Assembly (NCBI GenBank): GCA_025738555.1
Contig: JAOVFP010000005.1
Location: 5,022,001 to 5,086,000, forward strand
Direction: 5' to 3'
DNA from: Cyathus striatus
Lineage: Eukaryota; Basidiomycota; Agaricomycetes; Agaricales; Nidulariaceae
Length of the DNA: 64,000 nucleotides
The notes under the pieces were generated by a model. That model had not been told where the DNA came from. It ran no database searches and worked only from the letters and a program-made list of their open reading frames with translations. The position numbers and the translations under genes are program-made. Positions 14,508 to 47,602 of this stretch are shown one piece after another (the first letter of the stretch is position 1; the number at the start of each line of letters is the position of its first letter).

Positions 14508-16888
14508 TGTAAAGAGCTCATCATTGATAGGTATTTCATGGGAGATAAGGTTGTCTGCTATGAAGGCCTATCACAGTCTGCTGGGGCTTATATCTAGGTA
14601 TCAGTGTAATCTCATTACCTCTATTGCTTTGTTTCTGATTTTGAGGTCTAGCATTTTCTTTTCTCCTTTAGAGTGGGGTTCGCACATAATTTCTCTTGAG
14701 ACTGCTGATCTCCCTCCATCCCATATAAAGTTTGATATCATTTTTTGCAGCTGTTTTTCAGTTTCTGGCAGCATGCCTTGGACCCAAGTTTTGAATTGGG
14801 TGTTGCCTCCAATGATGATTTGGATCAGGAGTCTTTTACCTTCAGGTGTTGGATGCAGTCTACCCCAGTTCTGCAGTGCTAGTTCACATTTTTCTAGGAT
14901 GGGGGACCAAATGTTTGTTTGGTTAATTTTGTTCCTGACATAGGCCCCGAGTGCCCACACTGGTTCACCATCTGGTGCTATTTTTATGGTAGTGGAGATG
15001 GGCTGATGATTCTCGCATTGTTTCCTGTTCTGTGTAACATTGGTATGGTGTTCAATTGTCCCAATGGGTAGTATCTCAGTTTTACTGACATTGAATTTTG
15101 CCCTGGAGGCAAGACACCAGTCATCTAGGATTTTGAAGATATCATTGGGGTCATCCTCTTTGGAGAGGAATACTGATGTGTCATCTGTGAAGAGATTAGT
15201 AATCAGTTTCTGTGCCATTCTGTGGGTTTGAAATCTGTTCATATTGCTGTGCCACAGCATGGAGGCTAGTGGCTCTATTGCAAGGTTGAAAAGGAAACAT
15301 GAGAGGGGGTCTCCTTGCCTGACTCCTCTCGTGACTTCATATGGATCACTCAGAATACTGTTGATCATAACTTGGGTTTGGGCATTGGAGTAGAGGGTCA
15401 TGATTAGTTTTATGGTGTCTGAGGTGAAGCCATATTTTTTCAGCACCTGCCAGAGGTAGTGGTGGAAGATTTTGTCATAGGCTTTCTCTTGGTTGAGGAA
15501 GACAATGATGCCATTATGTTCTTTGAGTTCTCCCCAGTAGATAATATTTCATAGCAGGTCAATTTGATTCTCTATGCATTGCCCCTTTAGGAAGCCTGCT
15601 TGGTCTGGGTGGATGAGCTGGAGTAATGTAGGTGCTATTCTATTTGTTAAGATCTTCATTAACAACTTATAGTCTGTATTTAGAACTGTAATTAGATGGT
15701 AGTTTGCAATGTCGGTCCTATCCTTCTTCTTATATATAGGACACATTCATTCTTCATGAAAATTGGAGTTTGGCTCTAGACCCTGGAGTTGAATTTCATT
15801 GAATACTTGAGTTAGTATGATGGTAATGTCAAAGGTACATTCTCCTTTTGTTTTGCTGTCATCTCCTATTTTTACTAGGCATTTCCAGTACTCATTTGGG
15901 ATACCGTCAAGCCCAGGGGATTTTCCTAGTTGGACATCTTTTATTGCTTGTCATATGTCTTCCTTTGTAAAAGGTTGGCTAATTTTTGCTGCTTCCTCTG
16001 GGTCCAATTGTGTTTCAGCATGAGGAGTGCTTATTTGATTTTTTGTCAGTTGAGTGTTTTATTGGCTTCTGTGATGGGTTTTTTGTCATGTTGAAGGAAT
16101 AGATGGTGTGCTTGAGCAATACATGCCATTTTTTTAGAGCTTCTTACAAGGTTATTGGGGTCTGGCCTGACTTGGAGTGCTAGGATCATATCACAGGGTT
16201 TAGATTCCTGGACTGACCTCAGCCAGTGCTTCCCCACCACTTTGTCTTTGATTTTGAAGTTGACATGGATATAGTTTCAGATCACATCAAATTGTTTAAC
16301 ATGTAAGTCTTTAATGTCATGTTCTAGTTGCACAGAGTTAATTCTTTTGTCATCTTGGAATAGTATTGTGGAATTTAGGGTTTCCTTAAGTAATTTTTCT
16401 TTGGACTTAATGAGGGTTTGAATTTTCAGTATTTTCTTCTGGCAGTGTTCTTTGATTATCAAGGTGACTGTTTTTTTGTAGTTCAGATAGAGACTTTGTT
16501 TTGTGTTGCTCTGGTGGTGGTCATCCTGAGAGTGTTCTGTCTGGAGGTTTGTGGTGGACTTTGCAATTTCAGTTATCAATAAGTTGTCATTGAGGGCAAA
16601 GCTGGGGATTGACCACCTCCCTTTACCAATTTCAGAGGTGCCAGGATTGAAGAGCTGTATGGAGACATACTTGTGGTCTGCATGTTCAATACCACTATGT
16701 TCCATGTGCCAGCCTTGACTATGGCAGATCATAGTATTTATAACATATATTTGGTCTAGTTTTGATTGTACATTGGAGTTTTTTTGTAGGTATGTGTATG
16801 CTAGCTCATTAGGGTGTGCATCATGCCACCTGTCTGCCAGGTGGAGCATAGTTTTGGCTGCTTTGAAAATTTCAACAGTTGATTGGTC
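14508..16888 (-). pseudogene. LINE ORF2: linker and reverse transcriptase
   Basis: Reverse transcriptase of a Tad-like LINE, which copies element RNA at a nicked target. Blocks seen in order: KKDRTDIANYHLITVLNTDYK (fingers, usually R-P-I-x-L), HPDQAGFLKGQ, VFLNQEKAYDK (first catalytic aspartate region, with N-Q-E where D-F is usual), GVRQGDPLS, and FTDDTSVFL near 15,180 (the F-A-D-D box). Stops lie near 16,265, 16,020-16,045, 15,915, 15,835, 15,750 and 15,550, so it is dead. The N-terminal piece 16,912-16,277 holds the end of the endonuclease and a helical linker. Confidence 0.75.
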
Positions 16889-16905
16889 TATTAGATGTAG
16901 CAAAG

Positions 16906-16979
16906 TGACCACACCAGGGTTTGAACCTGGGACCTATCTGATAGTTTCAGAGTGCTCTAACCAACTGAGCTATATGGTC
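16906..16979 (-). tRNA. tRNA-like sequence in LTR C (3' LTR of TRIM)
   Basis: It folds as a cloverleaf: acceptor stem 7 bp (one G-U), D stem GCTC/GAGC, anticodon stem 4 of 5 bp, T stem CCAGG/CCTGG, T loop TTCAAAC, discriminator A. The A box TAGCTCAGTTGG fits the consensus, and the B box is GGTTCAAACCC. The anticodon position reads ACT, but the base before it is A instead of the invariant T, and a serine tRNA would need a long variable arm. It is therefore probably a tRNA mimic and Pol III promoter, not a decoding tRNA. Confidence 0.6.
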
Positions 16980-17127
16980 TTGTTCAAGTGAAAGTTGGGT
17001 TGTATTATATATACCCAAGGACCAAGTGTGTTATTCCTGCCAAGAGCCTCTGTGTATTACTGGGTAGGCATATATGGAATACTCAGGGACTCTACCTGTC
17101 ACATGACTAATACATCATCATGCAACA

Positions 17128-17234
17128 CTCTCCCCTGATGTGGCAGGTCTTGTGACTTTGGATCACGTGACCATGAGACACTTTGCTGAATAAGCAGATT
17201 CCCACACACAGTGTAGTGCTTGGGGCCCATAATC
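17128..17234 (-). other. TRIM interior: PBS and polypurine tract
   Basis: On the minus strand it opens with TTATGGGCCCC just after the 5' LTR. This is complementary to the anticodon arm of initiator tRNA-Met (GGGCCCAUAA), as in Drosophila copia, which is primed by a 5' half-tRNA. It closes with the purine tract GGGGAGAG. No start codon frame of any length. Confidence 0.75.
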
Positions 17235-17251
17235 TATTAGATGTAGCAAAG

Positions 17252-17325
17252 TGACCACACCAGGGTTTGAACCTGGGACCTATCTGATAGTTTCAGAGTG
17301 CTCTAACCAACTGAGCTATATGGTC
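17252..17325 (-). tRNA. tRNA-like sequence in LTR C (5' LTR of TRIM)
   Basis: Same 74 nt as at 16,906-16,979, with no difference seen. A TATATATAATA box lies about 24-34 nt upstream, the usual place for TFIIIB. There is no T4 terminator between the tRNA-like end and the primer-binding site, so a Pol III transcript could read into the interior of the element. Confidence 0.6.
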
Positions 17326-17478
17326 TTGTTCAAGTGAAAATTGGGTTGTATTATATATACCCAAGGACCAAGTGTGTTATTCCTGCCAAGAGCCTCTGTG
17401 TATTACTGGGTAGGCATGTATGGAATACTCAGGGACTCTACCTGTCACATGACTAATACATCATCATGCAACATGGTC

Positions 17479-18183
17479 ATCTGGGTGTGCCAGCAATCTG
17501 TCCACACTGTCTTCGACAAGGTTGAAATCACCTAGAACAACATCTGGCTTTGGTATTCTATTGTGTGTGACTAGGGATATTATAGTTTCCCAGAAGGTTT
17601 TTATCTCACTTTCTTTATTAGGTGCATAGATATTTAGGACTTTCAAGACACCCTCACTTTTCTTCCAGGGTGTGATTAGCATGAGTGCTCTACCAGGGAT
17701 CACTTTGATCATTTTAATATCTGACCAAGAAGCACAGCATTTATTGAAAGCAAAGGCAACACCTGCAGCTGCATTGGAGTTATTTGGGTCAGATGAGCTG
17801 ACTACTTTCATGTGGGTCTTGAATTGGTTGTTGAGATTACTGTTTTCAGTGGGTGTCAGGTGGGCTTCCTGTATAGCCATGAATCCTATATTGTCATCTT
17901 GCATTAGCTGGTTTATTTTCTGCCACTTGGGATTCGAGGCAGATGCACCTCCTCTTATATTTGCAGAGGCTATTTTGATATGTGCTCGCAGCACTTTACC
18001 TTGGTTTCTTTTGTTCCTGGGGATGTTAGCTGTTGAGTTGACATGTTGGGGTTGTGGGGTAGCCATCGTTGTTTGACTAGGGGAAGAGGGGAGAGAATTC
18101 CCCAGATTAATATGTGCATCTGAGGAGGAGATGGAGCAGATGTAGTTTGGTCTGGACTTTGCCCCCTTTGAGTAGAGGGTCAA
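17479..18183 (-). pseudogene. LINE ORF2: endonuclease domain
   Basis: AP-type endonuclease (exonuclease-endonuclease-phosphatase fold) that nicks the target. Visible motifs: IASANIRGG (first Asn), MAIQEAHL (catalytic Glu), LNIYAPN and VLGDFNLVEDSVDR (Asp and Asn of the active site). The frame stops at 17,473-17,478, where the TRIM with duplication TGGTC is inserted, and resumes on the other side in the linker. A TGA at 18,180 sits where arginine would fit between SAQN and PSTQRG. Confidence 0.75.
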
Positions 18184-19071: not shown

Positions 19072-19354
19072 TGTGAGATGTACAACCAGGGCAGTGACCT
19101 GCAGGACTGAGAGAGACAGTAGAGTCTGAAGTCCAATGTACAGTGAGCAAGTGGGGATTGCCACTGTAGGACCTCAGGATTATATACTACTAGCTTATCT
19201 ACCAAAGTCCGAGGGTCTAAGGGTCCAAGGGTCCAAGGGTCCAACCAAGGTCTAAGGGTCCAACCAAGGTCCCAACCCAGGTCCAGTACCTAAGTTTACC
19301 TAAGTCTACCTAAGGTTCATTAGTCAGCAGAGAAGTGTCAGATCACTTCTAACA
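19072..19354 (-). repeat. Copia copy A, 3' LTR (family A)
   Basis: 283 bp, TGTTAGAAGTGATCTGAC to ACATCTCACA. It lacks one copy of a 59-bp tandem unit that other family A LTRs carry. It is preceded on the minus strand by the purine tract GGGGGG. Confidence 0.85.
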
Positions 19355-19442
19355 CCCCCCCATGATCTGAACAGTCTCTAAGTATGTAGTTAAGTAAAGG
19401 AAGTAAAAGTGAAAGAATGTGAAAGAAAGTAAATGAATGAAT

Positions 19443-20978
19443 CTAAGGTAAAAGTCCCATGTTCTCTCTACAGAATTCAACCTTTGGAATGGTAAGTGGC
19501 TTGGTGAGAATGTCAGCTATTTGCTTTTCAGTTGGAACATGATGCAAGCTGATAGAGCCTTTTTCAACAGTTTCTCTAAGCCAGAAATAACAAAGATCAA
19601 GTTGCTTCATGCGCCCATGGTGTTCTGGATTCTTGGTGACAGAGATGGCAGACTGGCTGTCAATGTGAAGAGGACTAGAAGTGGGAATGGGGAAGCCAAA
19701 TTCCTTCATGATATTCTGCATCCAAAGTATCTCTTTGCCAGCTTCAACAGCAGCAATGTACTCTGCTTCAGTTGTGGATAAAGTTACTATAGTCTGTAAC
19801 TTGCTAGACCAGCCAATGGCACCTCCACCAATCAGAGTTACATAACCACCAGTAGAATGACCTGTGTCTTTGCAATCACCATGGGAAGCATCACAATATG
19901 TGAGGAAGAGTTCATCTCCTTTGGCAGCACTGTAGGTCAACTTGTAGTCAAGAGTTCCCTTCAAGTATCTGAAGAGATGTTTGACAGCTAACCAGTGTTG
20001 CATGCCAGGGTTGGAGTTGAATCGACCTAAGTACCCAACAGAAAAAGCAATGTCTGGTCTTGTAGTGATAGCAAGATATTGTAGAGATCCTACAGCACTT
20101 AGATAAGGGATGGAGGCCATCTCAGAACGTTCCTCAGCTGTTTGAGGACCCATAGACTTGGTCAGAATGAGACCATGATTCATAGGAGTTCCACAAGGTT
20201 TGCAATCACTCATGCCATATCTCTCAAGCATATCCAGCACATACTGGCGCTGTGAGAGAGTAATAGAGCGATTGGGACGATCCCTGTCTATCTTAACACC
20301 CAGAAGGAAAGATGTGGGGCCCAAATCTCAAAGTTTGAAGTGGGCAGAAAGCTGCTTGACTGTATCATCAGCAGCAGAAGGAGAAGTTGATGCAATGGTA
20401 ATGTCATCAATGTAAACAGGCATGATGATCTTAGTATCACCCTTTGAGTAAATGTAGACTGAGTGGTCTGAATGAGTTCTAGTAAAGCCCATAGTGGTTA
20501 GAACATCTTGAAGCTTCTTTCTCCATTGTCTAGCAGCTTGTTTAAGTCCATACAGTGATTTCCTAAGTCTGCATACATGATTGGGACCACCTTGATGGAA
20601 TCCTTCTGGTTGGAGCATGTATATCTCCTCCTCCAAGTCACCATATGTAAAGGCAGATGAGATGTCAACAGATCGCATAGTCATGTCTTTGATAGCAGAC
20701 AGAGCAGCTACAAGCCTGAGAGAGGCAGGACGAAATGTTGGTGCAAATATCTCTGTGTAATCATACCCAGGACATTGTGAGTACCCTTTTGCAACAACTC
20801 TAGACTTGTATCGCTCAACAGCCCCAGTAGGAGTTGGCTTGATCTTGAATACCCATCTAGAGCCTATAGCCTTCTTTCCTGGGGGCAATTCCACAATATC
20901 CCAAGTTCCATTTCGCATCAATGACATGATCTCATCATTGCAAGCTTCCTGCCATTGTTGTGCATCAGGGGCTTTCAT
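19443..20978 (-). pseudogene. Copia reverse transcriptase and RNase H, copy A
   Basis: Two in-frame pieces (20,978-20,331 and 20,324-19,443) are separated by a single TGA at 20,328-20,330, where copy B has CGA (LRDLGPTSF). Motifs in order: WVFKIKPT, KGYSQCPGYDYTEIFAP, SLYGLKQAARQW, the catalytic box YIDDITIAS, TRPDIAFSVG, then RNase H with YCDASHGDCKDTGHSTGGY, STTEAEYIA and ADILTKPL. One CpG transition is the only visible defect in this part. Confidence 0.88.
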
Positions 20979-21145
20979 GGCAAGCTTGTAGTTCTTGGGA
21001 TCAACTCCTGTTGATGCAGCTCCAGCAAATTGAACCTCCTGATACCCCCCCAGATCATCTTCACTGCTATTATCCTCTAATGCATCAGGCTCCTGAATAT
21101 CCTCATCTGGGTCATCAGGTAGAGGAGCAGGTGATGATGGTACTC

Positions 21146-22876
21146 TTACTTTCCACCACTCACCAGGAGGCCTAACATCCCTTCTGGGACGCCTCTGAGC
21201 CAGTGGAGGAGTAGCAGGCAGAGCAGGAGGAGCAGGAGGTGGTGGTGAAGGGGTGGGAGTTGAGGTTGGTGTGGCAGTAGGAGATGATATTGGAGTTGTA
21301 GGTGGACTAGTTCCTCATAGGGTGTCTTGTCAGGCAGAGACGAAGTGGGAAGACGATTCCACACATAAACCATGGAAGATAGGCATTCACCCCAAAATGT
21401 TGGAGGGAGATGAGACTCATTGAGCATAGCTGTAACATCATCAGCCATAGTGCGATTTGCACGCTCTGCAACTCCATTTTGCTGAGGTCTGGCAGGAGCA
21501 GTATGTCTCCTTACAATCCCACATCTATCTGTAAACTTGATGAATGCATTAGACATGTATTCACCTCCCTTGTCATCCTGTAAAGCTTTAATCTTTCTCC
21601 CAAGTTGATTCTCAACCAATGACTTGTAACTCCTGAAAGCATCAAATGCACCACTCTTCTTCTTTAAGAAGGCAACACAACGATATCTGGTGTAATCATC
21701 AATGAATGTGATCCAGTATCTATAGCCAGATGGAGTCTGAGTAGGCAAAGGGCCATGGAGGTCAGAATGAATGAGTTCTAAGGGGGCAGAAGTGTGAGAT
21801 TCAGATGAAGGGAATGGATTAGAATGCATCTTGCCAGCTAAGCAAGGTTCACAAATAGGGTCAGGCTTCTCCTTGGACTTGATGACAATCCCTGTAGCCA
21901 TATCTTCAGATATAAGTTTCTGAATGTCTGCATAATTATGGTGTGCAAGACGACGATGCCATAGCTGTAAATCCATGGGACAAGTTGAAGAAATGTTGGC
22001 TACTTCAGAAACAGCAGAAAGGGCTTCTGTCTCTCCATCCAAGTATGCATTATTGTTGGCAGTGATGGAAGCAGAGAATATGAGACTTCCATTCTTGCTG
22101 AAATCAACATACTGTGATCCAGCAGTCATAATGATGCCCTTGCAACGAGTTAAGTAGAGACAGGAGAGTAAATTGTTTCTGAGCTGGGGTACATGCAGAA
22201 CTCTGGTGAATTCTATAGATCTGGATACCTTTCCTCTAATCACTGGGTGAAAGACCACAGTGCCCACTCCTTGGGAATAAATGATTTTCCCATCAGCTAA
22301 CTTGATTGGAACCTTCTTGGGTGCATAATTGCGAACCCAATGGCGATGGGGTGTCATATGACAAGATGCCCCTGTATCTGTGTTCCAATCAAAGTCTGCA
22401 TCAAGTTGGAGTGGGTAGGAAGGATCTGAGGGATCCAGAGAATGAGTACTTGCATTTCCAGCAAATTCAGTAGCATCTCCATTGAATTCTGAATCAAATT
22501 TGACATCAGCAGAGGCAGTAGTGACTTCTGAAGTGGAGGATTGTGCTATGGAAGCAGTGGAAGAGGGAGAAGGCTGTGCAGAACCAGTGGAAGATGGCAG
22601 ACTAGATGAAGATATGCCAGGAGAGGTGCTTTTGAATGAAGTGGAACCTGGAATGGAAGACCTGGTAGCCTGCTTATGAGCCTGTGATCTTGCTCTTTTG
22701 AATCTGTAGCAGTTGGATAGAGCATGACCAACTCGAGTGCAGAATTCACAAGTAATAGGCATGGTGTCACCAATGTCTGGTTGTGAGGAGAAGAAGCAGG
22801 TGGTTGATCTAGAATAACTAGAAAGACCAAAGGAATGTGATTTGAAATGCACTGTGGGTAATGACCCAGACAGCAC
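21146..22876 (-). pseudogene. Copia gag zinc knuckle, protease and integrase, copy A
   Basis: The frame starts just after the leader and contains a CCHC knuckle CEFCTRVGHALSNC (about residues 43-56), a Ser/Thr-rich spacer, a protease core WNTDTGASCHM, a GAG-pre-integrase HHCC finger (HRRLAHHNY...CEPCLAGK) and the integrase with FIDDYTRYR, DDKGGEYMS and PQQNGVAERANRT. After TPYE the frame shifts because about 355 bp are deleted. No capsid (UBN2-type) domain precedes the knuckle, so Gag looks incomplete even in the parental sequence shared with copy B. Confidence 0.85.
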
Positions 22877-23063
22877 ACTGAATGGATGTGCAGAGGAGAA
22901 AGACCAGAGTGTGGTAGGAACTGCACTGTTGGTAAAATCCCAGACAGCACAAGTAGAAGGAAGGTGATGAGTTGTAGTGGAACTACCAGAACAACTGGGT
23001 AAAAAGAATGTGGAGTGGAGGTTGATTTAACAAGCAAGCAGTTAAAGCTCGGGGCCCATAACC

Positions 23064-23394
23064 TGTGAGATGTACAACCAGTGCAGTGACCTGCAGGACT
23101 GAGAGAGACAATAGAGTCTGAAGTCCAATGTACAGTGAGCAAGTATTAGATTGAAGTAGTATGTGTACAGCTTACCTGAAGTCCAATGTACAGTGAGCAA
23201 GTGGGGATTGCCACTGTAGGACCTCAGGATTATATACTACTAGCTTATCTACCAAAGTCCGAGGGTCTAAGGGTCCAAGGGTCCAAGGGTCCAACCAAGG
23301 TCTAAGGGTCCAACCAAGGTCCCAACCCAGGTCCAGTACCTAAGTTTACCTAAGGTTCATTAGTCAGCAGAGAAGTGTCAGATCACTTCTAACA
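23064..23394 (-). repeat. Copia copy A, 5' LTR (family A)
   Basis: 331 bp with the 59-bp tandem unit present twice (around 23,095-23,210). Rich in repeated GGACCC and TTAGACC words upstream of a TATATAATCCTGAGG box. Followed on the minus strand by PBS GGTTATGGGCCCCGAGC. Confidence 0.85.
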
Positions 23395-25969: not shown

Positions 25970-26208
25970 TATTAGATGTAGCAAAGTGACCACACCAGGG
26001 TTTGAACCTGGGACCTATCTGATAGTTTCAGAGTGCTCTAACCAACTGAGCTATATGGTCTTGTTCAAGTGAAAGTTGGGTTGTATTATATATACCCAAG
26101 GACCAAGTGTGTTATTCCTGCCAAGAGCCTCTGTGTATTACTGGGTAGGCATATATGGAATACTCAGGGACTCTACCTGTCACATGACTAATACATCATC
26201 ATGCAACA
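25970..26208 (-). repeat. LTR family C
   Basis: 239 bp, the same length and ends as the TRIM LTRs. It truncates the Copia E reverse transcriptase. Contains the tRNA-like sequence. Confidence 0.85.
25987..26060 (-). tRNA. tRNA-like sequence in LTR C
   Basis: Same 74-nt cloverleaf, A box and B box as the other copies, and the same non-canonical anticodon loop AAACTAT. Part of the hybrid element, so not an independent tRNA gene. Confidence 0.55.
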
Positions 26209-26315
26209 CTCTCCCCTGATGTGGCAGGTCTTGTGACTTTGGATCACGTGACCGTGAGACACTTTGCTGAATAAGCAGATTCCCACACACAGTGTAGTGC
26301 TCGGGGCCCATAACC

Positions 26316-26640
26316 TGTGAGATGTGCAACCAGGACAGTGACCTGCAGGACTGAGAGAGACAATAGAGTCTGAAGTCCAATGTACAGTGAGCAAGTGTTA
26401 GATTGAAGTAGTATATGTACAGCTTACCTGAAGTCCAATGTACAGTGAGCAAGTGGGGATTGTCACTGTAGGACCTCAGAATTATATACTACTAGCTTAT
26501 CTACCAAAGTCCGAGGGTCCAAGGGTCCAACCAAGGTCTAAGGGTCCAACCAAGGTCCCAACCCAGGTCCAGTACCTAAGTTTACCTAAGTCTACCTAAG
26601 GTTCATTAGTCAGCAGAGAAGTGTCAGATCACTTCTAACA
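26316..26640 (-). repeat. LTR family A (5' end of hybrid element)
   Basis: TGTTAGAAGTGATCTGAC to CACATCTCACA, with the 59-bp tandem unit twice. Directly followed on the minus strand by PBS GGTTATGGGCCCCGAGC. Confidence 0.8.
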
Positions 26641-27990
26641 GAACCAGAATCTACTAGTGTGAAAAAGGAAAAAGAAAGTGCAGAATCTGATGCAGAAGTA
26701 GATAATAAACAAATGTGTAATGCCTGGGGGTTGTAAAGAGCAGATGCATTGAGGCAGATCTCCTGGGTGTACAGGAGGGATCAATGTGGCCCTCAGTCTG
26801 TATGGGGAACCTGAGGGCTGCACTCTATTTTTTCGAACTCTCATCTGAGTTCAAAATAGAGTCCTCAACAGCAGGTGCGGAAATGGTCGTGGCTCGAGCT
26901 TTAGCTGCTGAGGAGGATGCCTTACGGCAATCCTTAGCACGATGTGTCAGAAGTAACAAGAATAGAGGGGGTGGATGGAGAGAGAATAGAAGATAATAGG
27001 AGCAAGAAAGGTGATAAGAGAGTAAATAACTCAGACACAAACACTAACACAGACACAAGATGAGGAGGAAACTTGTTTTCAACTACCAAGATACAGAGTG
27101 TTTATATACTAAGGGTGTCTACCAAAGTCCCAATCAAGGTCCATGTAACTAAGGTAACTGACAGCTGTCAATCTGTCAATCACATATCTGTCAATCACAG
27201 AACTGTCAAGTATAACAGGTGACAAGTGACAGCTGTCAAAGAAGCTGTGCAACCCTGAATATCTAACACGATGGCCAGGTTTTCTGCAGAAAAGATAAAG
27301 GTTGCTGTCCATGCAGCATTTGTGTTCCTCGGGGGTCAGCTTACCATCCTTTCCAAGTTTACTGCTCAGGTCAAAGGCTGGCATCTGCGGGGTGTTGGTA
27401 GTTTTTCCCAAAGATGGTGAGGACGTCAAAGGCTTGGGGGGAGTCGAAGAGTTGGATTTGTTAGTAGAACTCAGAGATGCCGCATTATCTGAAGACTTTG
27501 CAGCTTGTCTAGAAGGCTTCAACTCAAAACCCTGTTTGGCTTGGCTCCAATAGTGCATATCAACCTTCTGAGCAAGGTACTTCCTATCCCCTAGGGTAGG
27601 AGGTAAGTCAAGGAGAGCGAGGTCATCCTTGATGTGAGAACAGAGGCCACGATAGTACTGAGCTGCAAGGGCAGACTCGCCCCAGTCCAGTAGAGAGGCA
27701 CACTCATTAAACTTTACCTCGTAAGTAGCAATGTGCTGGTTGTCATCCATGTGGATAACCATAATGTGTGACTCTGCATCACTGGTAGGATTGGCAAGGC
27801 CAAAGTGAGTGTGGAGGACTACAAGGAAGTGTGGCCAAGAGGACATCCAGTCCTCAGTGGTACCACTAGAGATGTGCGGTGCAAATAAATTCATGGCTGT
27901 ACCCTGAAGATAGGAAATGGTGTAGTTGACTCTGGAATAGTTGGTGGGGTACATGGTCTTGTTGTTATGAAAAACTAAGAGACACTGTAG
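26641..27990 (-). pseudogene. Ty3/Gypsy gag remnant, interrupted by a solo LTR
   Basis: Capsid-type gag of a Gypsy element. From 27,954: MYPTNYSRVNYTISYLQGTA, WMSSWPHFLVVLHTHFG, EVKFNECASLLDWGESALA, AQYYRGLCSHIKDDLALLD, then a Ser/Lys/Pro-rich linker and the zinc knuckle LFCRKPGHR. The LTR B at 26,945-27,268 splits the knuckle, which resumes as AKDCRKASSS downstream. The first knuckle cysteine is replaced by tyrosine (Y-L-F-C). The coding trace continues to about 26,825 (SILNSDESSKK) and is then lost. Confidence 0.75.
26945..27268 (-). repeat. Solo LTR, family B, inside the Gypsy zinc knuckle
   Basis: TGTCAGAAGTAAC to ATATCTAACA with a perfect duplication CGATG (26,940-26,944 and 27,269-27,273). 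It splits the gag reading frame between His-Arg and Ala-Lys-Asp-Cys of the knuckle. Confidence 0.9.
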
Positions 27991-27994
27991 TATG

Positions 27995-28305
27995 TGTCAG
28001 AAGTAACAAGAATAGAGGGGGTGGATGGAGAGAGAATAGAGGATAATAAGAGCAAGGAAGGTGATAAGAGAGCAAATGACTCAGACACAAACACTGACAC
28101 AGACACAAGATGGGGAGGAAACTTGTTAACTACTACCAAGTTACAGAGTGTTTATATATACTGAGGGTGTCTACCAAAGTCCCAACCAAGGTCCATGTAA
28201 CTAAGGTAACTGACAGCTGTCAATCTGTCAATCACAGAACTGTCAAGTATGACAGGTGACAAGTGACAGCTGTCAAAGAAGCTGTGCAACCCTGAATATC
28301 TAACA
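27995..28305 (-). repeat. LTR family B
   Basis: TGTCAGAAGTAAC to ATATCTAACA. The flanks GTATG and ATTGG do not match, so it may be a recombined end rather than a simple solo LTR. Confidence 0.8.
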
Positions 28306-28414
28306 ATTGGAAGTTTTCGAAGCTTGAGGCTCAATATTGCACTCAGTATCACTTTCTATAATAGTGGGGTGAGTTGATCCTTGGCCTAATTGAGGAAGGT
28401 GTTTATCAATGACT

Positions 28415-28996
28415 TTAAAGTTCAACAGATGAAAAAGGATTACTTTGTTTATCTTGTGTCCCTCCTTTCATACTGCCATTCTTCATATCTCTATCCCCAC
28501 TATCCCTGTTTGCTTGTTTCTTCTTTGCTGGTGCTTTCGACTTCTTGCTCTTGGTAGTGTCTACTTCATCATTCTCATCTAGTCCTTCAGTCTCAGAAGC
28601 TAAACACAAATGTTGACTCCTCAGTACTAGAACTTGTGAAATCAACTTGAGAGAACATTTACCTTCTGTATCATGATGCTTCCATTTTCTCCCTGCTTCC
28701 TGATGCTCTTCATCACCTTTGCATAGCCAAGCTGAATCACTTCAGCATCAATGCCACAGGAACTTGAACTTGTTAAGCATTCTACTAACTAGGGTGCATG
28801 AGTGCATTCTCCTTTGCTTTTTGTCTACCTTCATACTTATAATGTGAGTACCTGGAAACTTTAAAGCTGAAATTGATACTAACCACTCACTGCTACATCA
28901 TCAACCAGTTTTCGATCCTCAATTTCTTGCAAGATACAATTACGAGCTTGAGTTGCAATTGACTTCATAGACCATGTGCTGGATTCAGTAGGCATG
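28415..28996 (-). pseudogene. Small unrecognised gene relic
   Basis: A possible spliced minus-strand gene: MPTESSTWSMKSIATQARNC from 28,996, then IDAEVIQLGYAKVMKSIRKQ, and a last exon SETEGLDENDEVDTTKSKKS with a lysine-rich tail ending at 28,415. Introns with GT...AG edges can be placed, but one piece changes frame. The acidic then basic low-complexity end suggests a nuclear protein. I do not recognise the family and it may be part of a transposon. Confidence 0.3.
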
Positions 28997-29225
28997 GTGT
29001 TACAATGTCAAGGTGCAGGATTTGGGTAGAGTCAAAAGTGGCAGGAGTGAAGGAAAGGGGGAACCACAATGTGGTGCAAATATGAACTTGTACTGAGTGA
29101 GTTGTGATTTGTTATGTGACACAACTGTGCCAAGTTTTAGGCTAACTCGAGCTGCAGATTACCCTCTTCCTCTTTGTTGTTCATTACATATCACTACAAT
29201 TCTACATAGTCACTTTGCACTCAAA

Positions 29226-29508
29226 TGGAACCTCAACAATACTCTTGTCTTGCTTGTGGGACACATCACCTAATGAAAACCAGCTATGAGAAGCACCTCC
29301 ACCTAAGCCATGATCCATTCTGTCATCAGTATGAGGCCCTTCAAGCTCAAAACCAAGCATGGACATAAGGTGTCAAACACAAGAAAATCTTGAGCTCACA
29401 AGCAACATCTTTTTCTGGTGATGCATTTGGCACAGTGGCCCAATATGAAGATGATATGTTTGGACAAGATAAGGCTGAGTTTATTACAACACACATAGGT
29501 GGTGGTTC
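29226..29508 (+). pseudogene. C2H2-like N-terminal fragment, cut by an LTR
   Basis: MEPQQYSCLACGTHHLMKTS then YEKHLHLSHDPFCHQYEALQ: a C-x2-C...H-x3-H arrangement. A TAA follows at about 29,367, after which the same frame goes on with SGDAFGTVAQYEDDMFGQDK until LTR B begins at 29,509. Some fungal DNA transposases start with such a finger, but I cannot assign this one. It is divergent from the relic ending at 28,996, with about 230 bp between. Confidence 0.35.
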
Positions 29509-29667
29509 TGTTAGATATTCAGGGTTGCACAGCTTCTTTGACAGCTGTCACTTGTCACCTGTCATACTTGACAGTTCTGTGATTGACAGATATATGATTG
29601 ACAGATTGACAGCTGTCAGTTACCTTAGTTACATGGACCTTGGTTGGGACTTTGGTAGACACCCTCA

Positions 29668-29983
29668 TGTGAGAAGTAACAAAGAATAAGGAGGGTGGTT
29701 GAGAGAATAGAGAGTGATAAGAGATAGAAGCTCAGACACAAACACAGACACAGACACAAAATGGGGAGAAAGCTTGTTGACAACTACCAAGTTACAGAGT
29801 GTTTATATACTGAGTAAGTCTACCAAAGTCCTAACCAAAGTCCTGTAACTAAGGTAACTGACAGCTGTCAATCTGTCAATCACAAATCTGTCAATCACAT
29901 ATCTGTTAATCACAGATCTGTCAAGTATGACAGGTGACAAGTGACAGCTGTCAAGGAAGCTGTGCAACCCAGAATATCTAACA
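29668..29983 (-). repeat. Solo LTR B inserted in another LTR B
   Basis: A reverse copy TGTGAGAAGTAAC to ATATCTAACA with a perfect duplication CCTCA (29,663-29,667 and 29,984-29,988). The host LTR B continues on the plus strand on both sides (29,509-29,667 and 29,984-30,153). Confidence 0.92.
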
Positions 29984-30353
29984 CCTCAGTATATAAACAC
30001 TCTGTATCTTGGTAGTAGTAAAACAAGTTTCCTCCCCATCTTGTGTCTGTGTCTGTGTTTGTGTCTGAGTCTTTGCTCCACTATCACCCTCTTTGCTTCT
30101 TTATCACACTCTATTCTCTCAATCACCCTCCTTTATTCTTGTTACTTCTGACAGGTTATGGGCCCCGCCTTTTAATCTTTGCCACAACATATTACCACTG
30201 CTACTTCACCCACTTCATCACTCCATACTTGTGCTGTCTGGGACCTTTCCCACAGTTCAGTCTCAACCACTTATCCCTCATTTGTTTTAGAACTTTATCC
30301 CTTCATTCATTCATCATTCACCATGTCTCTCCACAATGCTTCTGAACTTATGG

Positions 30354-30592
30354 TGTTGCATGATGATGTATTAGTCATGTGACAGGTAGAGTCCCTGAGT
30401 ATTCCATACATGCCTACCCAGTAATACACAGAGGCTCTTGGCAGGAATAACACACTTGGTCCTTGGGTATATATAATACAACCCAACTTTCACTTGAACA
30501 AGACCATATAGCTCAGTTGGTTAGAGCACTCTGAAACTATCAGATAGGTCCCAGGTTCAAACCCTGGTGTGGTCACTTTGCTACATCTAATA
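30354..30592 (+). repeat. LTR family C
   Basis: 239 bp, TGTTGCATGATG to ATCTAATA, inside the gag start of the family B element. Flanks TATGG and TGTTC do not match. Contains the tRNA-like sequence. Confidence 0.85.
30502..30575 (+). tRNA. tRNA-like sequence in LTR C
   Basis: Plus-strand copy of the same 74-nt cloverleaf. A TATATATAATA box stands about 24-34 nt before its 5' end. The anticodon loop AAACTAT lacks the usual T at position 33, so a working tRNA is unlikely. Confidence 0.55.
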
Positions 30593-30675
30593 TGTTCTTT
30601 GATGGACTTTGGTTTCTATGGACTTGTGTTGGATTAGGTGGGAGTTTGGTTGTACTAGCTGTGCAAGGTGGGAGT

Positions 30676-30998
30676 GTTAGATATTCAGGGTTGCACAGCT
30701 TCTTTGACAGCTGTCACTTGTCACCTGTCATACTTGACAGTTCTGTGATTGACAGATATGTGATTGACAGATTGACAGCTGTCAGTTACCTTAGTTACAT
30801 GGACCTTGGTTGGGACTTTGGTAGACACCCTCAGTATATAAACACTCTGTATCTTGGTAGTAGTAAAACAAGTTTCCTCCCCATCTTGTGTCTGTGTCTG
30901 TGTTTGTGTCTGAGTCTTTGTTCCACTATCACCCTCTTTGCTTCTTTATCACACTCTATTCTCTCAATCACCCTCCTTTATTCTTGTTACTTCTGACA
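30676..30998 (+). repeat. LTR family B (3' LTR of deleted element)
   Basis: TGTTAGATATTCAGGG to CTTCTGACA, preceded by purine-rich CAAGGTGGGAG. It holds the repeated TGACAG array and a TATATAAACACTC TATA box. Confidence 0.85.
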
Positions 30999-32229: not shown

Positions 32230-32571
32230 TGTTAGAAGTGATCTGACACTTCTCTGCTGACTAATGAACCTTAGGTAGACTTAGGTAAACTTAGGTACTG
32301 GACCTGGGTTGGGACTTTGGTTTGGACCCTTAGACCTTGGTTGGACCCTTGGACCCTTGGACCCTTAGACCCTCGGACTTTGGTAGATAAGCTAGTAGTA
32401 TATAATCCTGAGGTCCTACAGTGGCAATCCCCACTTGCTCACTGTACATTGGACTTCAGGTAAGCTGTACACATACTACTTCAATCTAATACTTGCTCAC
32501 TGTACATTGGACTTCAGACTCTACTGTCTCTCTCAGTCCTGCAGGTCACTGCACTGGTTGTACATCTCACA
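32230..32571 (+). repeat. Copia copy B, 5' LTR (family A)
   Basis: 342 bp, TGTTAGAAGTGATCTGAC to ACATCTCACA, with the 59-bp tandem unit (ACTTGCTCACTGTACATTGG...) twice and a TATATAATCC box. Confidence 0.87.
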
Positions 32572-32758
32572 GGTTATGGGCCCCGAGCTTTAACTGCTTG
32601 CTTGTTAAATCAACCTCCACTCCACATTCTTTTTACCCAGTTGTTCTGGTAGTTCCACTACAACTCATCACCTTCCTTCTACTTGTGCTGTCTGGGATTT
32701 TACCAACAGTGCAGTTCCTACCACACTCTGGTCTTTCTCCTCTGTACATCTATTCAGT

Positions 32759-34165
32759 GTGCTGTCTGGGTCATTACCCACAGTGCATTTCAAATCACAT
32801 TCCTTTGGTCTTTCTAGTTATTCTAGATCAACCACCTGCTTCTTCTCCTCACAACCAGACATTGGTGACACCATGCCTATTACTTGTGAATTCTGCACTC
32901 GAGTTGGTCATGCTCTATCCAACTGCTACAGATTCAAAAGAGCAAGATCACAGGCTCATAAGCAGGCTACCAGGTCTTCCATTCCAGGTTCCACTTCATT
33001 CAAAAGCACCTCTCCTGGCATATCTTCATCTAGTCTGCCATCTTCCACTGGTTCTGCACAGCCTTCTCCCTCTTCCACTGCTTCCATAGCACAATCCTCC
33101 ACTTCAGAAGTCACTACTGCCTCTGCTGATGTCAAATTTGATTCAGAATTCAATGGAGATGCTACTGAATTTGCTGGAAATGCAAGTACTGTTCTCTGGA
33201 TCCCTCAGATCCTTCCTACCCACTCCAACTTGATGCAGACTTTGATTGGAACACAGATACAGGGGCATCTTGTCATATGACACCCCATCGCCATTGGGTT
33301 CGCAATTATGCACTCAAGAAGGTTCCAATCAAGTTAGCTGATGGGAAAATCATTTATTCCCAAGGAGTGGGCACTGTGGTCTTTCACCCAGTGATTAGAG
33401 GAAAGGTATCCAGATCTATAGAATTCACCAGAGTTCTGCATGTACCCCAGCTCAGAAACAATCTACTCTCCTGTCTCTACTTAACTTGTTGCAAGGGCAT
33501 CATTATGACTGCTGGATCACAGTATGTTGATTTCAGCAAGAATGGAAGTCTCATATTCTCTGCTTCCATCACTGCCAACAATAATGCATACTTGGATGGA
33601 GAGACAGAAGCCCTTTCTGCTGTTTCTGAAGTAGCCAACATTTCTTCAACTTGCCCCCTTAGAGCTCATTCATTCTGACCTCCATGGCCCTTTGCCTACT
33701 CAGACTCCATCTGGCTATAGATACTGGATCACATTCATTGATGATTACACCAGATATCGTTGTGTTGCCTTCTTGAAGAAGAAGAGTGGTGCATTTGATG
33801 CTTTCAGGAGTTACAAGTCATTAGTTGAGAATCAACTTGGGAGAAAGATTAAAGCTTTACAGGATGACAAGGGAGGTGAATACATGTCTAATGCATTCAT
33901 CAAGTTCACAGATAGATGTGGAATTGTAAGGAGACATACTGCTCCTGCCAGACCTCAGCAAAATGGAGTTGCAGAGCGTGCAAATCGCACTATGGCTGAT
34001 GATGTTACAGCTATGCTCAATGAGTCTCATCTCCCTCCATCATTTTGGGGTGAATGCCTATCTTCTATGGTTTATGTGTGGAATCGTCTTCCCACTTCTT
34101 CTCTGCCTGATAAGACACCCTATGAGGCATGGCATGGCCAGAAACCTAACCTTAGCAATCTGTGA
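32759..34165 (+). pseudogene. Copia gag knuckle, protease and integrase, copy B
   Basis: The same order as in copy A: CEFCTRVGHALSNC, protease DTGAS (the frame is shifted by a missing base near 33,190, so this part is read in another frame), then MTPHRHWVRNY. The GAG-pre-integrase HHCC finger is lost in a deletion of about 190 bp that joins CTTGCCCC to CTTAGAGC. The integrase core FIDDYTRYR...DDKGGEYMS...QNGVAERANRT is present and ends at a TGA (34,163-34,165) in place of an arginine before VWGCTAY. Confidence 0.85.
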
Positions 34166-34192
34166 GTTTGGGGTTGTACTGCTTATGTCTTT

Positions 34193-36352
34193 GTGCACAA
34201 AGAGCAGAGAAAGTCCCTTCAACCACATATGCAGAAATGTGTCTTCATTGGTTACCCAGCTGGGTACAAGGCTTGGAAATTCTACAATCCAACCACCAAG
34301 AAGACTGTTATCTCAGAAAGAGCTGAATTTGATGAAAGGCTCTTTCCTGGCCTATCCAAGCCAACATCTCCAATTCCACCTCACATTATCTCTTCTCCAG
34401 AGCCTGCTGTCTATGAATCTACAGACTCATCCATTCCCTTTCCTGATGTTTCCATATCACCTCCAAATCATTCTAGCTCTCCAACTAGTCCACCTACAAC
34501 TCCTATATCATCTCCTACTGCCACACCAAACCCAACTCCCACTCCCTCACCACCACCTCCTGCTCCTCCTGCTCTGCCTGCTACTCCTCCACTGGCTCAG
34601 AGACGTCCCAGAAGGGATGTTAGGCCTCCTGGTGAGTGGTGGAAAGTAAGAGTACCATCATCACCTGCTCCTCTACCTGATGACCCAGATGAGGATATTC
34701 AGGAGCCTGATGCATTACAGGATAATAGCAGTGAAGATGATTTGGGGGGGTATCAGGAGGTTCAATTTGCTGGAGCTGCATCAACAGGAGTTGATCCCAA
34801 GAACTACAAGCTTGCCATGAAAGCCCCTGATGCACAACAATGGCAGGAAGCTTGCAATGATGAGATCATGTCATTGATGTGAAATGGAACTTGGGATATT
34901 GTGGAATTGCCCCCAGGAAAGAAGGCTATAGGCTCTAGATGGGTATTCAAGATCAAGCCAACTCCTACTGGGGCTGTTGAGCGATACAAGTCCAGAGTTG
35001 TTGCAAAAGGGTACTCACAACGTCCTGGGTATGATTACACAGAGATATTTGCACCAACATTTCGTCCTGCCTCTCTCAGGCTTGTAGCTGCTCTGTCTGC
35101 TATCAAAGACATGACTATGCGATCTGTTGACATCTCATCTGCCTTTACATATGGTGACTTGGAGGAGGAGATATACATGCTCCAACCAGAAGGATTCCAT
35201 CAAGGTGGTCCAAATCATGTATGCAGACTTAGGAAATCACTGTATGGACTTAAACAAGCTGCTAGACAATGGAGAAAGAAGCTTCAAGATGTTCTAACCA
35301 CTATGGGCTTTACTAGAACTCATTCAGACCACTCAGTCTACATTTACTCAAAGGGTGATACTAAGATCATCATGCCTGTTTACATTGATGACATTACCAT
35401 TGCATCAACTTCTCCTTCTGCTGCTGATGATACAGTCAAGCAGCTTTCTGCCCACTTCAAACTTCGAGATTTGGGCCCTACTTCTTTCCTTCTGGGTGTT
35501 AAGATAGACAGGGATCGTCCAAATCGTTCTATTACTCTCTCACAGCGCCAGTATGTGCTGGATATGCTTGAGAGATATGGCATGAGTGATTGCAAACCTT
35601 GTGGAACTCCTATGAATCATGGTCTCATTCTGACCAAGTCTATGGGTCCTCAGACAGCTGAGGAACGTTCTGAGATGGCCTCCATCCCTTATCTGAGTGC
35701 TGTAGGATCTCTACAATATCTTGCTATCACTACAAGACCAGACATTGCTTTTTCTGTTGGGTACTTAGGTCGATTCAACTCCAACCCTGGCATGCAACAC
35801 TGGTTAGCTGTCAAACATCTCTTCAGATACTTGAAGGGAACTCTTGACTACAAGTTGACCTACAGTGCTGCCAAAGGAGATGAACTCTTCCTCACATATT
35901 GTGATGCTTCCCATGGTGATTGCAAAGACACAGGTCATTCTACTGGTGGTTATGTAACTCTGATTGATGGAGGTGCCATTGGCTGGTCTAGCAAGTTACA
36001 GACTATAGTAACTTTATCCACAACTGAAGCAGAGTACATTGCTGCTGTTGAAGCTGGCAAAGAGATACTTTGGATGCAGAATATCATGAAGGAATTTGGC
36101 TTCCCCATTCCCACTTCTAGTCCTCTTCACATTGACAGCCAGTCTGCCATCTCTGTCACCAAGAATCCAGAACACCATGGGCGCATGAAGCAACTTGATC
36201 TTTGTTATTTCTGGCTTAGAGAAACTGTTGAAAAAGGCTCTATCAGCTTGCATCATGTTCCAACTGAAAAGCAAATAGCTGACATTCTCACCAAGCCACT
36301 TACCATTCCAAAGGTTGAATTCTGTAGAGAGAACATGGGACTTTTACCTTAG
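34193..36352 (+). pseudogene. Copia integrase tail, reverse transcriptase and RNase H, copy B
   Basis: 34,193-34,879 holds the integrase C-part (KCVFIGYPAGYKAWKFYN) and a proline-rich linker. A TGA at 34,880-34,882 replaces the CGA of copy A (SLMRNGTWD). Then an intact 483-residue frame, 34,901-36,352, carries KGYSQRPGYDYTEIFAP, SLYGLKQAARQW, YIDDITIAS, the RNase H motifs and ADILTKPL. This half matches copy A almost residue for residue. Confidence 0.88.
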
Positions 36353-36442
36353 ATTCATTCATTTACTTTCTTTCACATTCTTTCACTTTTACTTCCTTTA
36401 CTTAACTACATACTTAGAGACTGTTCAGATCATGGGGGGGGG

Positions 36443-36783
36443 TGTTAGATGTGATCTGACACTTCTCTGCTGACTAATGAACCTTAGGTAGACTTAGGTA
36501 AACTTAGGTACTGGACCTGGGTTGGGACCTTGGTTGGACCCTTAGACCTTGGTTGGACCCTTGGACCCTTAGACCCTTAGACCCTCGGACTTTGGTAGAT
36601 AAGCTAGTAGTATATAATCCTGAGGTCCTACAGTGGCAATCCCCACTTGCTCACTGTACATTGGACTTCAGGTAAGCTGTACACATACTACTTCAATCTA
36701 ATACTTGCTCACTGTACATTGGACTTCAGACTCTATTGTCTCTCTCAGTCCTGCAGGTCACTGCCCTGGTTGCACATCTCACA
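36443..36783 (+). repeat. Copia copy B, 3' LTR (family A)
   Basis: 341 bp, starts TGTTAGATGTGATCTGAC after a run of nine G. It has the 59-bp unit twice. It ends TCACA and is joined to a fragment of LTR B. Confidence 0.87.
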
Positions 36784-42059: not shown

Positions 42060-42715
42060 ATGCAGATCATCACGGCGTGACGCGCCTCAAAGACGTGACA
42101 CGTGTGACGTGCGTGAAATGCGTGACAAATAGATGTGAGATGTGTGACATTCATAAAAGCACAATGCTCATAAAGAATGTGACAAATGTGATGCGTGACG
42201 CGCATGAAAGCATGACAAATGCGCTAAAGCGTGACAAGTGCAATATATGCGTAGTGTGGGAGAATTGTGACAGATGTGACGCGCATGAAAATTGTCACAA
42301 ATATGATGTGTGGGAAATGTATGATGAATTGATGCACGGGAATATGTGTGACAGACATGACGGGTGGGACGAATGTGATGCGTGGGAATATATGTGACGA
42401 ACGTGACGCACAGGAAATATGTGACAGATGTGAAGCGCGGGAATATATGTGACAAATGTGACACGCGGGAAGTATGTGACAAATGCGAAGCGCGGGAATA
42501 TGTGTGACGAGCGTGACGCGCGTGAAGAACATGACAAATGCAATGCGCGGGAAAAATACGAGGCGCGGGAATATGTGTGACGAACGTGACGCGCGTGAAG
42601 AACGTGACAAATGCAATGTGCGGGAGAAATATGAGGTGCGGGAGTATGTGTGACGAACGTGACGCGCGTGAATAATGTGACAAATGCGAAGCGTGGGAAA
42701 TATGTAAAGCGCAGG
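42060..42715. repeat. CpG-containing GTGACG array, right arm
   Basis: Inverted counterpart of the left array: GAACGTGACGCGCGTGAAGA and TGTGACAAATGCGAAGCGCG units. Between 42,060 and 42,235 it extends beyond what the left arm still has. Confidence 0.85.
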
Positions 42716-42779
42716 TCAACTAGTAATTGGTAATAGCAATACATAAGGGAAAAGCATACATAATACTATTAATAATAAT

Positions 42780-43490
42780 AGAAAGTATAAAGTAATGAGC
42801 ACTTATGAGTATACATAATATTAATACAATAGTAATAGGAAACATAAATTAATGAGTACTTATGAGTACACATTATACCATTAAATAATAATAGGAAGCA
42901 TTACAGTAATAATAGAGAACATAAAGTAATGAGTACTTATGAGTACACATACTAGTATTACAATAATAATATGAAACACAATGTAATGAGTACTTATGAG
43001 TATGCATATTACTATTACAATAACAATATAAAACATAATGTAATGAGTACTTATGAGTATGCATATTACTATTACAATAACAATATAAAACATAATGTAA
43101 TGAGTACTTATGAGTATGCATATTACTATTACAATAACAATAGGAAACACAATGTAATGAGTACTTATGAGTATGCATAATAGTATTACAATAATAATAG
43201 GAAACATAATGTAATGAGTACTTATGAGTATGCATTATAGTATTACAATAACAATAGGAAATATAAAGTAATGAGTACTTATGAGTACACATAATACTAT
43301 TACAATAACAATAAGGAATATAAAGTAATGAGTACTTATGAGTACACATAATACTATTACAATAACAATAGGAAACATAATGTAATGAGTACTTATGAGT
43401 ACACATAATAGTATTACAATAACAATAGGGAATGTGAAGTAATGAGTACTTATGAGTACACATAATACAATTGTAATAATAGTAAGAAGC
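42780..43490. repeat. 57-bp tandem array, right arm
   Basis: About 12 units with GTAATGAGTACTTATGAGTA, the inverted counterpart of 39,020-39,660. The unit number and order differ a little from the left arm. Confidence 0.88.
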
Positions 43491-45994: not shown

Positions 45995-46840
45995 ATTCTA
46001 TCTAGGCAACGTCACGGGTAACCCGTGGGTAGTTCAAGGGCTACCCGTACCCGTACTGACACTAACCTGTACCCGCAGACGACGGGTATATATTTAGCGG
46101 GTACTATGAGTAACGGGTATACCTGTGGATTTGAGACGGAGCATGAAGCTGAGTAAGCATGGAAAGAATTAAAGAGGTGCGATTATGAATGCTTCAATTA
46201 CATCATGAACCTCTGTGCATACCAAATACGAACTCAAGTTCATTGTCTGTGGGCGTTTTCAAGCACGAGTTCAAGTTCGTCATCTATGGGTCCCCAACCA
46301 AATCCACTTTAACCCCTCACAGAAGGCATAGCACTGTCATATGGAACTTGGAGTACGTGATCTAGGTGAGGTTTTTTCCGGATTGGATGTGGATTGGATG
46401 TCTGGAAATGAATGGGGATCAGGTGTGTATTCTTTCTCTTGTATTTCTTCTCTACTTCTAGTTCTCTGTCTTTTCCAGCCTTCATGTGTGTACACTGCGG
46501 TGTTCCTCCATCCTAACAGGTGCTACTCAAGTAACAGCACGTACACCTTCTCCACTCACACCTTTCCCACAACATTCCCACTCCCTCCCCACACCATCTC
46601 ATTTTCTAAAGTTATACACCGCATCCATGAGTCCCACAGCCAGTTTGTGACATTGGAGATGCTCACTTTTTTCATAAACATCTGCAAGTCTCACAGCTCC
46701 GAGTTCATGACATTGAAGATGCCCGAGGAAGCCAGCACTAACCCCTCAGCTCCACCTAGAATCATGGGAAAGACCGTCACCTTTGGTGGCGGCATCAAGT
46801 GTGTTGACGGCAGTGTGTGTACCTACTCTCCCCCCCCTCC

Positions 46841-47510
46841 CACATTGACTGTGCGATGCTGATGAGGGTGGGGGAGAGTGGGCATGGTGGGTACTCGACG
46901 CCACAGAGGGGGATGTGATTTGAGGACGAGCAGCATATAGGCGTACTCGACCGCATGATGCTGATGAGGGTGGGGGAGGGTGGGCGTGGCGGGTACTCGA
47001 TGGAGAGGGATGTGATTTGAGGATGAGCACATAGGCATACTGTGCGATGCTGATGAGGGTGGGGGAGAGTGGGTATGGTGGGTACTTGACACTGTGGAGG
47101 GGGATGTGATTTGAGGATGATTGTATAGGCGTACCCAACTGCATGAGGTTGATGAGAGTGGGGGAGGAAGGGCGTGGCATGTACTCGAGGGAAGGGGATG
47201 CAATTCAAGGATGGGCGCATAGGCGTACTCAACGGAGGGGGATACGATTCGAGGACAAACGCATAGGCATACTTGACCGTGTGATGCTGATGAGGGTGGG
47301 GGAGGGTGGGCGTGGCAGGTACTCGACAGAGGGGGATGTGATTCGAGGATGGGCGCATAGGCATACTCGACGGAGGGGGATACGATTTGAGAACGAACAC
47401 ATAGGCATACTCGATGGAGGGGGATACGATTCAAGGACGAACACATAGGCATACTCAACGGAGGGGGATACAATTCAAGAACGAGTGCATAGGTGTACTT
47501 GACGGAGAGG
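46841..47510. repeat. Minisatellite inside hAT transposon 2
   Basis: A short unit of about 44 bp (CATAGGCATACTCGACGGAG then GGGGATACGATTCGAGGACG) alternates with a longer version that has about 60 bp more (GATGCTGATGAGGGTGGGGG...). About ten short units or their equivalents. The long open frames on both strands are repeat translations. It lies between the transposase stop and the left end of the element. Confidence 0.8.
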
Positions 47511-47602
47511 AAAATACAATAGATATACTGTATATGCACATGAAATTGGAACCCAATTGAAACCGTCTACATTCCAGTTTTGACAATAGCAATAAGATTT
47601 AT

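Follow-up and report, generated by a model that had tools for sequence, protein, structure and literature searches.

A Helenus-type element with tRNA-like LTR units in Cyathus striatus and its hybrids with a Copia lineage

The stretch of Cyathus striatus contig JAOVFP010000005.1 analyzed here (64,000 nucleotides, referred to below as the window) contains a 585-bp LTR element, each LTR of which carries a sequence resembling a tRNA. This raises the question of what class of element it belongs to, which polymerase reads it, and which autonomous element has moved it. From the sequences compared in this study, we consider it quite probable that the element represents a new Helenus family mobilised by a Copia lineage, here called Copia X, and that hybrids of the two would have formed through strand transfer at the primer-binding site (PBS).

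The 585-bp element and its tRNA-like unit

The original prediction placed an LTR element at positions 16889-17473, and these coordinates are correct. The sense strand is the minus strand, with the 5' LTR at 17473-17235, the interior at 17234-17128 and the 3' LTR at 17127-16889. The LTRs had been described as two equal 239-bp copies; both do have this length, and since they differ at 2 positions they are near-equal. The 107-bp interior with PBS and purine tract, as well as the perfect 5-bp duplication TGGTC at 16884-16888 and 17474-17478, are borne out by the sequence. The features of the element are as follows, with the basis of each in parentheses where one applies.

16884..16888, no strand: target-site duplication TGGTC, copy 1 (sequence)
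16889..17127, minus strand: 3' LTR of the Helenus-type element, 239 bp (LTR comparison)
16906..16979, minus strand: tRNA-like unit with A and B boxes, 3' LTR (Rfam RF00005, 50.8 bits; ARAGORN)
17003..17013, minus strand: TATATATAATA box, 3' LTR (-34 to -24 relative to the tRNA-like unit)
17128..17136, minus strand: purine tract AGGGGAGAG adjoining the 3' LTR (sequence)
17128..17234, minus strand: interior, 107 bp (sequence; genome copies)
17222..17232, minus strand: PBS TTATGGGCCCC, pairing with the anticodon-loop half of a host initiator-type tRNA-Met (complementarity)
17235..17473, minus strand: 5' LTR, 239 bp (LTR comparison)
17252..17325, minus strand: tRNA-like unit, 5' LTR (Rfam tRNA match)
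17349..17359, minus strand: TATA box, 5' LTR (sequence)
17474..17478, no strand: target-site duplication TGGTC, copy 2 (sequence)

Removal of the element together with one copy of the duplication reconstructs an empty site, across which a LINE open reading frame runs free of stops over 443 aa. The LINE interrupted by the element lies at 14601-18183 on the minus strand and has an RVT_1 domain and an endonuclease-like domain, the latter below the Pfam cut-off.

The cloverleaf predicted in each LTR was recovered in both as a match to the Rfam tRNA model (RF00005) at 50.8 bits, with a cut-off of 29, and two further LTRs in the window carry the unit at the same score (25987-26060 and 30502-30575). 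ARAGORN also calls these units tRNA, as a 75-nt tRNA-Ser(ACT), and the agreement of the two programs would suit a reading in which the LTR has taken up a host tRNA gene and codes for a functional tRNA. We regard this as very improbable. Position 33 of the anticodon loop (AAACTAT) is A, as first read from the sequence, and serine tRNAs have a long variable arm, for which a 75-nt unit is too short; with A33 and a serine anticodon on a unit of this length, the sequence is unlikely to be a functional tRNA. Nor does the unit resemble a recent capture of a normal host gene, a possibility that the original prediction itself had raised, as the nearest host tRNA among 33 predictions, which form a partial host set, is a tRNA-Ile(AAT) at 75%. 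The box predicted upstream of the cloverleaf was confirmed as TATATATAATA at -34 to -24, with an exact TATATA at -34.

TRIMs with a tRNA-like sequence in the LTR have been described as Helenus by Kojima 2024 (PMC10886601), from fungi (rusts and some Agaricomycetes), animals and a lycophyte; they measure 311-1263 bp in total, lack transposition proteins, and have their families in Repbase. Those of fungi show 5-bp duplications and a PBS mostly directed against a tRNA anticodon loop, most commonly that of initiator Met, and their dependence on Copia has been inferred; Helenus also has many solo LTRs (PMC10886601). The present element agrees with this description in its size (585 bp, of which the LTRs take 239 bp each and the interior 107 bp), in the position of the PBS just inward of the 5' LTR and of the purine tract before the 3' LTR, and in a PBS that matches the anticodon-loop half of an initiator-type tRNA. 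It also shares with Helenus a tRNA-like unit that is unlikely to function in translation. The tRNA-like sequence with its A and B boxes, which other copies might have lacked, is present in 40 of 40 full-length LTRs recovered, full length being defined by alignment to a unit-bearing LTR; some of the 9 partial copies lack the unit through truncation. The element is another family of Helenus, assigned by the class features described. The proposal of a fungal counterpart of the plant Cassandra elements with a tRNA-like promoter stands as regards a TRIM with a tRNA-like LTR unit, but the class had already been published as Helenus, fungal families included.

Copies in the genome and hybrids with Copia X

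In 107.45 Mb (24 contigs) we found 57 tRNA-like units with at most 3 mismatches and none with a reversed control pattern; the count admits only this range, and older copies are missed. The interior occurs in 12 copies genome-wide. At a subset of the 57 places, 49 distinct LTR copies were recovered, 40 of them full length, and the 9 partial ones were excluded from rates and duplication counts. The full-length set comprises 25 solo LTRs, 10 3' LTRs and 5 5' LTRs. As in fungal Helenus, 5-bp duplications flank 20 of the 25 solo LTRs and 4 of the 5 canonical copies with two complete LTRs, the exception being L086.

Some interiors are accompanied by a different LTR, X, which belongs to a 4.7-kb Copia element with long open reading frames (L093), in whose LTR no tRNA was found. 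Two window elements, at 23394-19072 and 32230-36783, match L093 at 97-98% identity along most of its length, and one of them carries the Copia-type RVT_2 domain. The corresponding features of the window, together with a chimera of the two families (L083) and a solo LTR, are listed below.

19072..23394, minus strand: Copia X element, candidate partner lineage; 5' LTR 23064-23394, PBS at about 23061, interior partly missing relative to L093
25970..26208, minus strand: Helenus-type LTR, 3' end of chimera L083 (LTR comparison)
26209..26315, minus strand: Helenus-type interior of chimera L083, with the PBS at its 5' end (interior copy)
26316..26640, minus strand: Copia X LTR (325 bp), the 5' LTR of chimera L083, without a matching duplication
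30354..30592, plus strand: solo Helenus-type LTR, without a 5-bp duplication
32230..36783, plus strand: Copia X element, candidate partner lineage; LTRs 32230-32571 and 36443-36783, PBS 32574, RVT_2

The opposed LTRs ending at 25970 and 30592 were also considered as inverted terminal repeats of a DIRS-like element, and this was rejected, the left one being that of the chimera and the right one a solo LTR.

Merging units less than 400 bp apart gives 51 insertions, of which 44 fall in 13 clusters, one each on 13 contigs, and 7 are isolated. A neighbouring insertion lies within 60 kb for 41 of the 51, whereas 2000 uniform placements give 2.7 such insertions on average and never more than 12. Among the 41 X LTR matches used (42 were obtained from the best 40 of 179 candidates scored, and one partial match was dropped), X LTRs are present in at least 11 of the 13 clusters. 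A single cluster per contig, mostly shared with Copia X, may mark centromeres. The clusters are those of this window (C5:5.04 Mb) and of 12 other contigs. Within the window, ordinary genes start near 52.8 kb, with a WW-domain protein and an mRNA cap methyltransferase, and long open reading frames of repeated peptide motifs at 42168-43463 and 46795-47539 are probably tandem repeats read through, not genes.

The sequence preceding the 12 interiors is a Helenus LTR in six (L081, L084, L085, which is rearranged, L086, L088 and L091) and a Copia X LTR in five (L082, L083, L087, L089 and L090). In every one of the five hybrids, X supplies the 5' end and Helenus the 3' end, and the join lies at the PBS. 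Four retain both ends, and matching 5-bp duplications flank three of these, namely CCCCT (L087), GTTAA (L090) and CATCC (L089); the fourth is the window chimera, and in L082 the 5' end has been lost. L083 and L090 have a complete X LTR; that of L087 is internally shortened, that of L089 is interrupted by a nested insertion and that of L082 is truncated. Hybrids account for 5 of 12 interiors; if the 25 solo LTRs recovered are counted along with the 6 canonical and 5 hybrid copies, their share is 5 of 36. The former value overstates the hybrid rate, because a canonical copy can be reduced to a solo LTR and a hybrid cannot. A separate search for an autonomous element with a Helenus interior was unsuccessful, 11 of the 12 candidates being Helenus copies or chimeras and the twelfth L092, a locus described below.

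The opposite arrangement was also observed. The PBS pattern follows 6 of the 57 Helenus units, five of them in canonical copies and the sixth at C20:651.6 kb, where a Helenus LTR (99%, positions 1-230) is followed by the PBS and then by a Copia-X interior, with no Helenus interior. This reverse hybrid (L094-L095, C20:646300-651900) is a single case, seen at its 5' junction, and it contains a nested reverse X LTR, with another X element starting 537 nt into L095. Together with the Copia LTR of the five hybrids, the junction agrees with the Copia link of fungal Helenus.

Chromosomal recombination between neighbouring Copia and Helenus copies might be thought to produce such structures, since both families are densely co-located and a crossover would also yield a reverse hybrid, which was seen once; that one chimera has no duplication and another is truncated would fit as well. 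We nevertheless judge this origin very improbable, as matching 5-bp duplications around three hybrids at different sites are not expected from a crossover between two insertions, and five of five X-Helenus junctions fall at the PBS, where the common stretch is very short.

The PBS core GGTTATGGGCCCCG is complementary to CGGGGCCCATAAC(C) of a host tRNA, in which CGGGGCCCATAAC is intact at five of six places, the sixth being a variant. We take this primer tRNA to be initiator Met from the features known for such tRNAs. This pairing involves the anticodon arm, so that priming would require a tRNA truncated at its 3' end, as is also the case in Drosophila Copia and Ty5 (Kojima 2024, PMC10886601). 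At the PBS, GGTTATGGGCCCCGAGC is common to X and 7 of the 12 Helenus interiors, and the exact match extends over 18 nt between L093 and L086 and over 11 nt between the full copy of the window and L093.

On this sequence basis, Helenus RNA would be reverse transcribed in Copia-X particles, with a 3'-truncated initiator-type tRNA at the PBS as primer, and the Copia integrase may then insert the product with the 5-bp duplications that are observed. With a PBS common to both RNAs, plus-strand strong-stop DNA of one could anneal to the minus-strand DNA of the other. Copia strong-stop DNA (U3-R-U5-PBS) pairing with the PBS complement of a Helenus minus strand would give a complete Copia 5' LTR on a Helenus interior, and the reverse hybrid would correspond to the opposite exchange. 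While the hybrid structures are seen directly, intermolecular second-strand transfer is what we infer from them as the best explanation. Normal replication cannot perpetuate the two-LTR structure of a hybrid, so that every hybrid is probably the trace of a single transfer. A weak hint of intermolecular transfer within Helenus comes from site 55, at which the two LTRs of the same copy differ in 2 of the 5 canonical copies (that of the window and L086, which lacks a duplication); 18 of the 40 LTRs carry the polymorphism at this site.

The PBS core recurs in a second LTR family, Y, where it is followed by GCC. Among the contexts of the 12 interiors examined, we found no Y-Helenus hybrid with an intact PBS; in L092, a Y-like LTR end abuts a Helenus interior and the PBS is missing. 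An X-like LTR in L092 is identical to the Helenus element of the window over 27 nt across the LTR end and PBS, and these two observations, the lack of an intact-PBS Y hybrid and the 27-nt identity of the X-like LTR, support the X lineage as the partner.

Further repeats were noted around these loci. Y-family repeats in both orientations occupy 26942-30153 and 30667-30998 of the window, with LTR start TGTTAGATATTCAGG and PBS GGTTATGGGCCCCGCC at 30156, and in L092/L012 (C13:2700339 region) the X-like LTR end reads TACATCTAATA and the PBS GATTATGGGCCCCAAG. An LTR end TTAACA before the same PBS stretch occurs at 7 places (two on C6, four on C9 and one on C16) and possibly marks another family with the same primer. 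At L042, a Helenus LTR is split near position 52-58 and a solo LTR of Copia X is present, flanked by the duplication ATATA, X having apparently inserted into Helenus, and at L008 a Helenus chimera lies inside an X interior; from X within Helenus and a Helenus chimera within X, it follows that the families were active in overlapping times. On the 3' side of the nested X and Helenus at L008 there is a SINE-like stretch, with an A-box-like TGGCTCAGCTGG and a B-box-like GGTTCAATTC followed by a T run (by eye), on which ARAGORN made no tRNA call.

The putative promoter and the two predicted RNAs

Transcription of the Helenus element probably begins in the 5' LTR, either at the tRNA-like unit or a short distance upstream. 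Judging by the motifs present, we lean towards transcription by Pol III, in which the internal A and B boxes would drive RNA synthesis and the TATA box would perhaps help. The cloverleaf with its A and B boxes is intact across a multi-copy family, and boxes A and B are conserved across Helenus families, for the published members of which Pol III transcription is unproven (Kojima 2024, PMC10886601). Constraint on the promoter is not detectable within the family, and there is no clear selection signal: the A and B boxes have 6 changes over 23 sites, which is no excess of conservation over the rest of the unit (14 over 50), and variable sites are not clearly rarer in the tRNA-like part (6 of 73) than in U3 (21 of 148). 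The original prediction also pointed to the lack of a T4 terminator before the PBS. TTTT is indeed absent over the 437 nt between the beginning of the 5'-LTR tRNA-like unit and the end of the element, one TTTT being present in the 5' LTR upstream of the unit, but this is at chance level: 54% of 2000 dinucleotide shuffles are also without TTTT, and avoidance is not significant.

The TATA box would suit Pol II just as well. The element could be an ordinary Pol II TRIM that is transcribed from this box, its tRNA-like unit being carried along passively or serving at a later stage, a reading that we consider possible rather than probable. An exact TATATA, found here at -34, occurs between -36 and -26 in none of 29 non-redundant host tRNA upstream regions, the X LTR carries a similar box (TATATAAT), and the missing constraint on the A and B boxes points the same way. 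The conservation of both boxes across Helenus families speaks against it, and so does the identity of 42 of the 57 units with that of the window, in a family that is young and a search that allowed up to 3 mismatches. An exact TATA-like pentamer is also found at -30 to -26 in 6 of up to 33 host tRNA predictions (0-2 in other bins), and with a TATA near -30 in some host tRNA genes, a TATA box at this place is compatible with Pol III. As a Pol III signal in its own right, a host-type TATA was set aside as weak: the hexamer with at most 1 mismatch occurs in 8 of the 29 regions at -36 to -26 and about as often elsewhere, in 8 at -25 to -15, 7 at -125 to -115 and 5 at -145 to -135.

If the preferred Pol III start is combined with the strand-transfer account, a broader picture would follow, for which we see an even chance. 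Helenus Pol III RNA and Copia Pol II RNA would routinely be co-packaged and their strong-stop DNA exchanged at the PBS, and a sizeable share of insertions would be hybrid, mostly with a Copia 5' LTR on Helenus and more rarely with a Helenus 5' LTR on Copia. Hybrids, being unable to become solo LTRs, would then durably record which autonomous element drives which TRIM.

Comparison with known elements

In the literature searched, Helenus as the name of a TRIM, and TRIMp3 in that sense, were found only in Kojima 2024, and the terms "chimer", "hybrid" and "centromer" are absent from its main text (PMC10886601). We found no description of Copia-Helenus hybrids in that literature, subscription papers being mostly outside the reach of the search.

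The proposed exchange has parallels in other retroelements. For HIV-1, one report describes intermolecular second-strand transfer with breakpoints at the PBS and a 5' LTR taken from another template (PMC5651808); there the exchange is between variants of one virus, whereas here it would involve two families with little beyond the PBS in common. Recombination among packaged RNAs has also been described for Onsen (PMC5668417). In Triticeae, according to the abstract of PMC1950507, fused LTR elements arose by template switching in reverse transcription and were then inserted; these are large plant elements, and the abstract does not mention a Pol III TRIM.

The partner of Pol III-type TRIMs was previously inferred mainly from resemblance of the PBS. 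Since at least two LTR families here have the same PBS core, resemblance alone cannot pick the partner. Hybrids that were integrated with duplications of their own can do so, and those found here indicate a single Copia lineage. LTR swapping between an autonomous element and its non-autonomous partner was reportedly found in soybean by Du et al.; these are plant elements, and we know of no tRNA-like LTR among them. The search for hybrid junctions at the PBS is applicable to any genome bearing Helenus or Cassandra.

Like Cassandra, a plant TRIM, the present element has a Pol III-type promoter sequence inside its LTR (Cassandra as described in PMC10886601). Unlike Cassandra, in which the sequence is a 5S rRNA promoter in plants and transcript ends have been reported, the sequence here is tRNA-like, and all four Rfam matches in the window are to tRNA, with no 5S rRNA among them. 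Relative to Helenus as published, the family of Cyathus striatus is distinguished by Copia hybrids that point to the partner lineage and by clustering at one site per contig.
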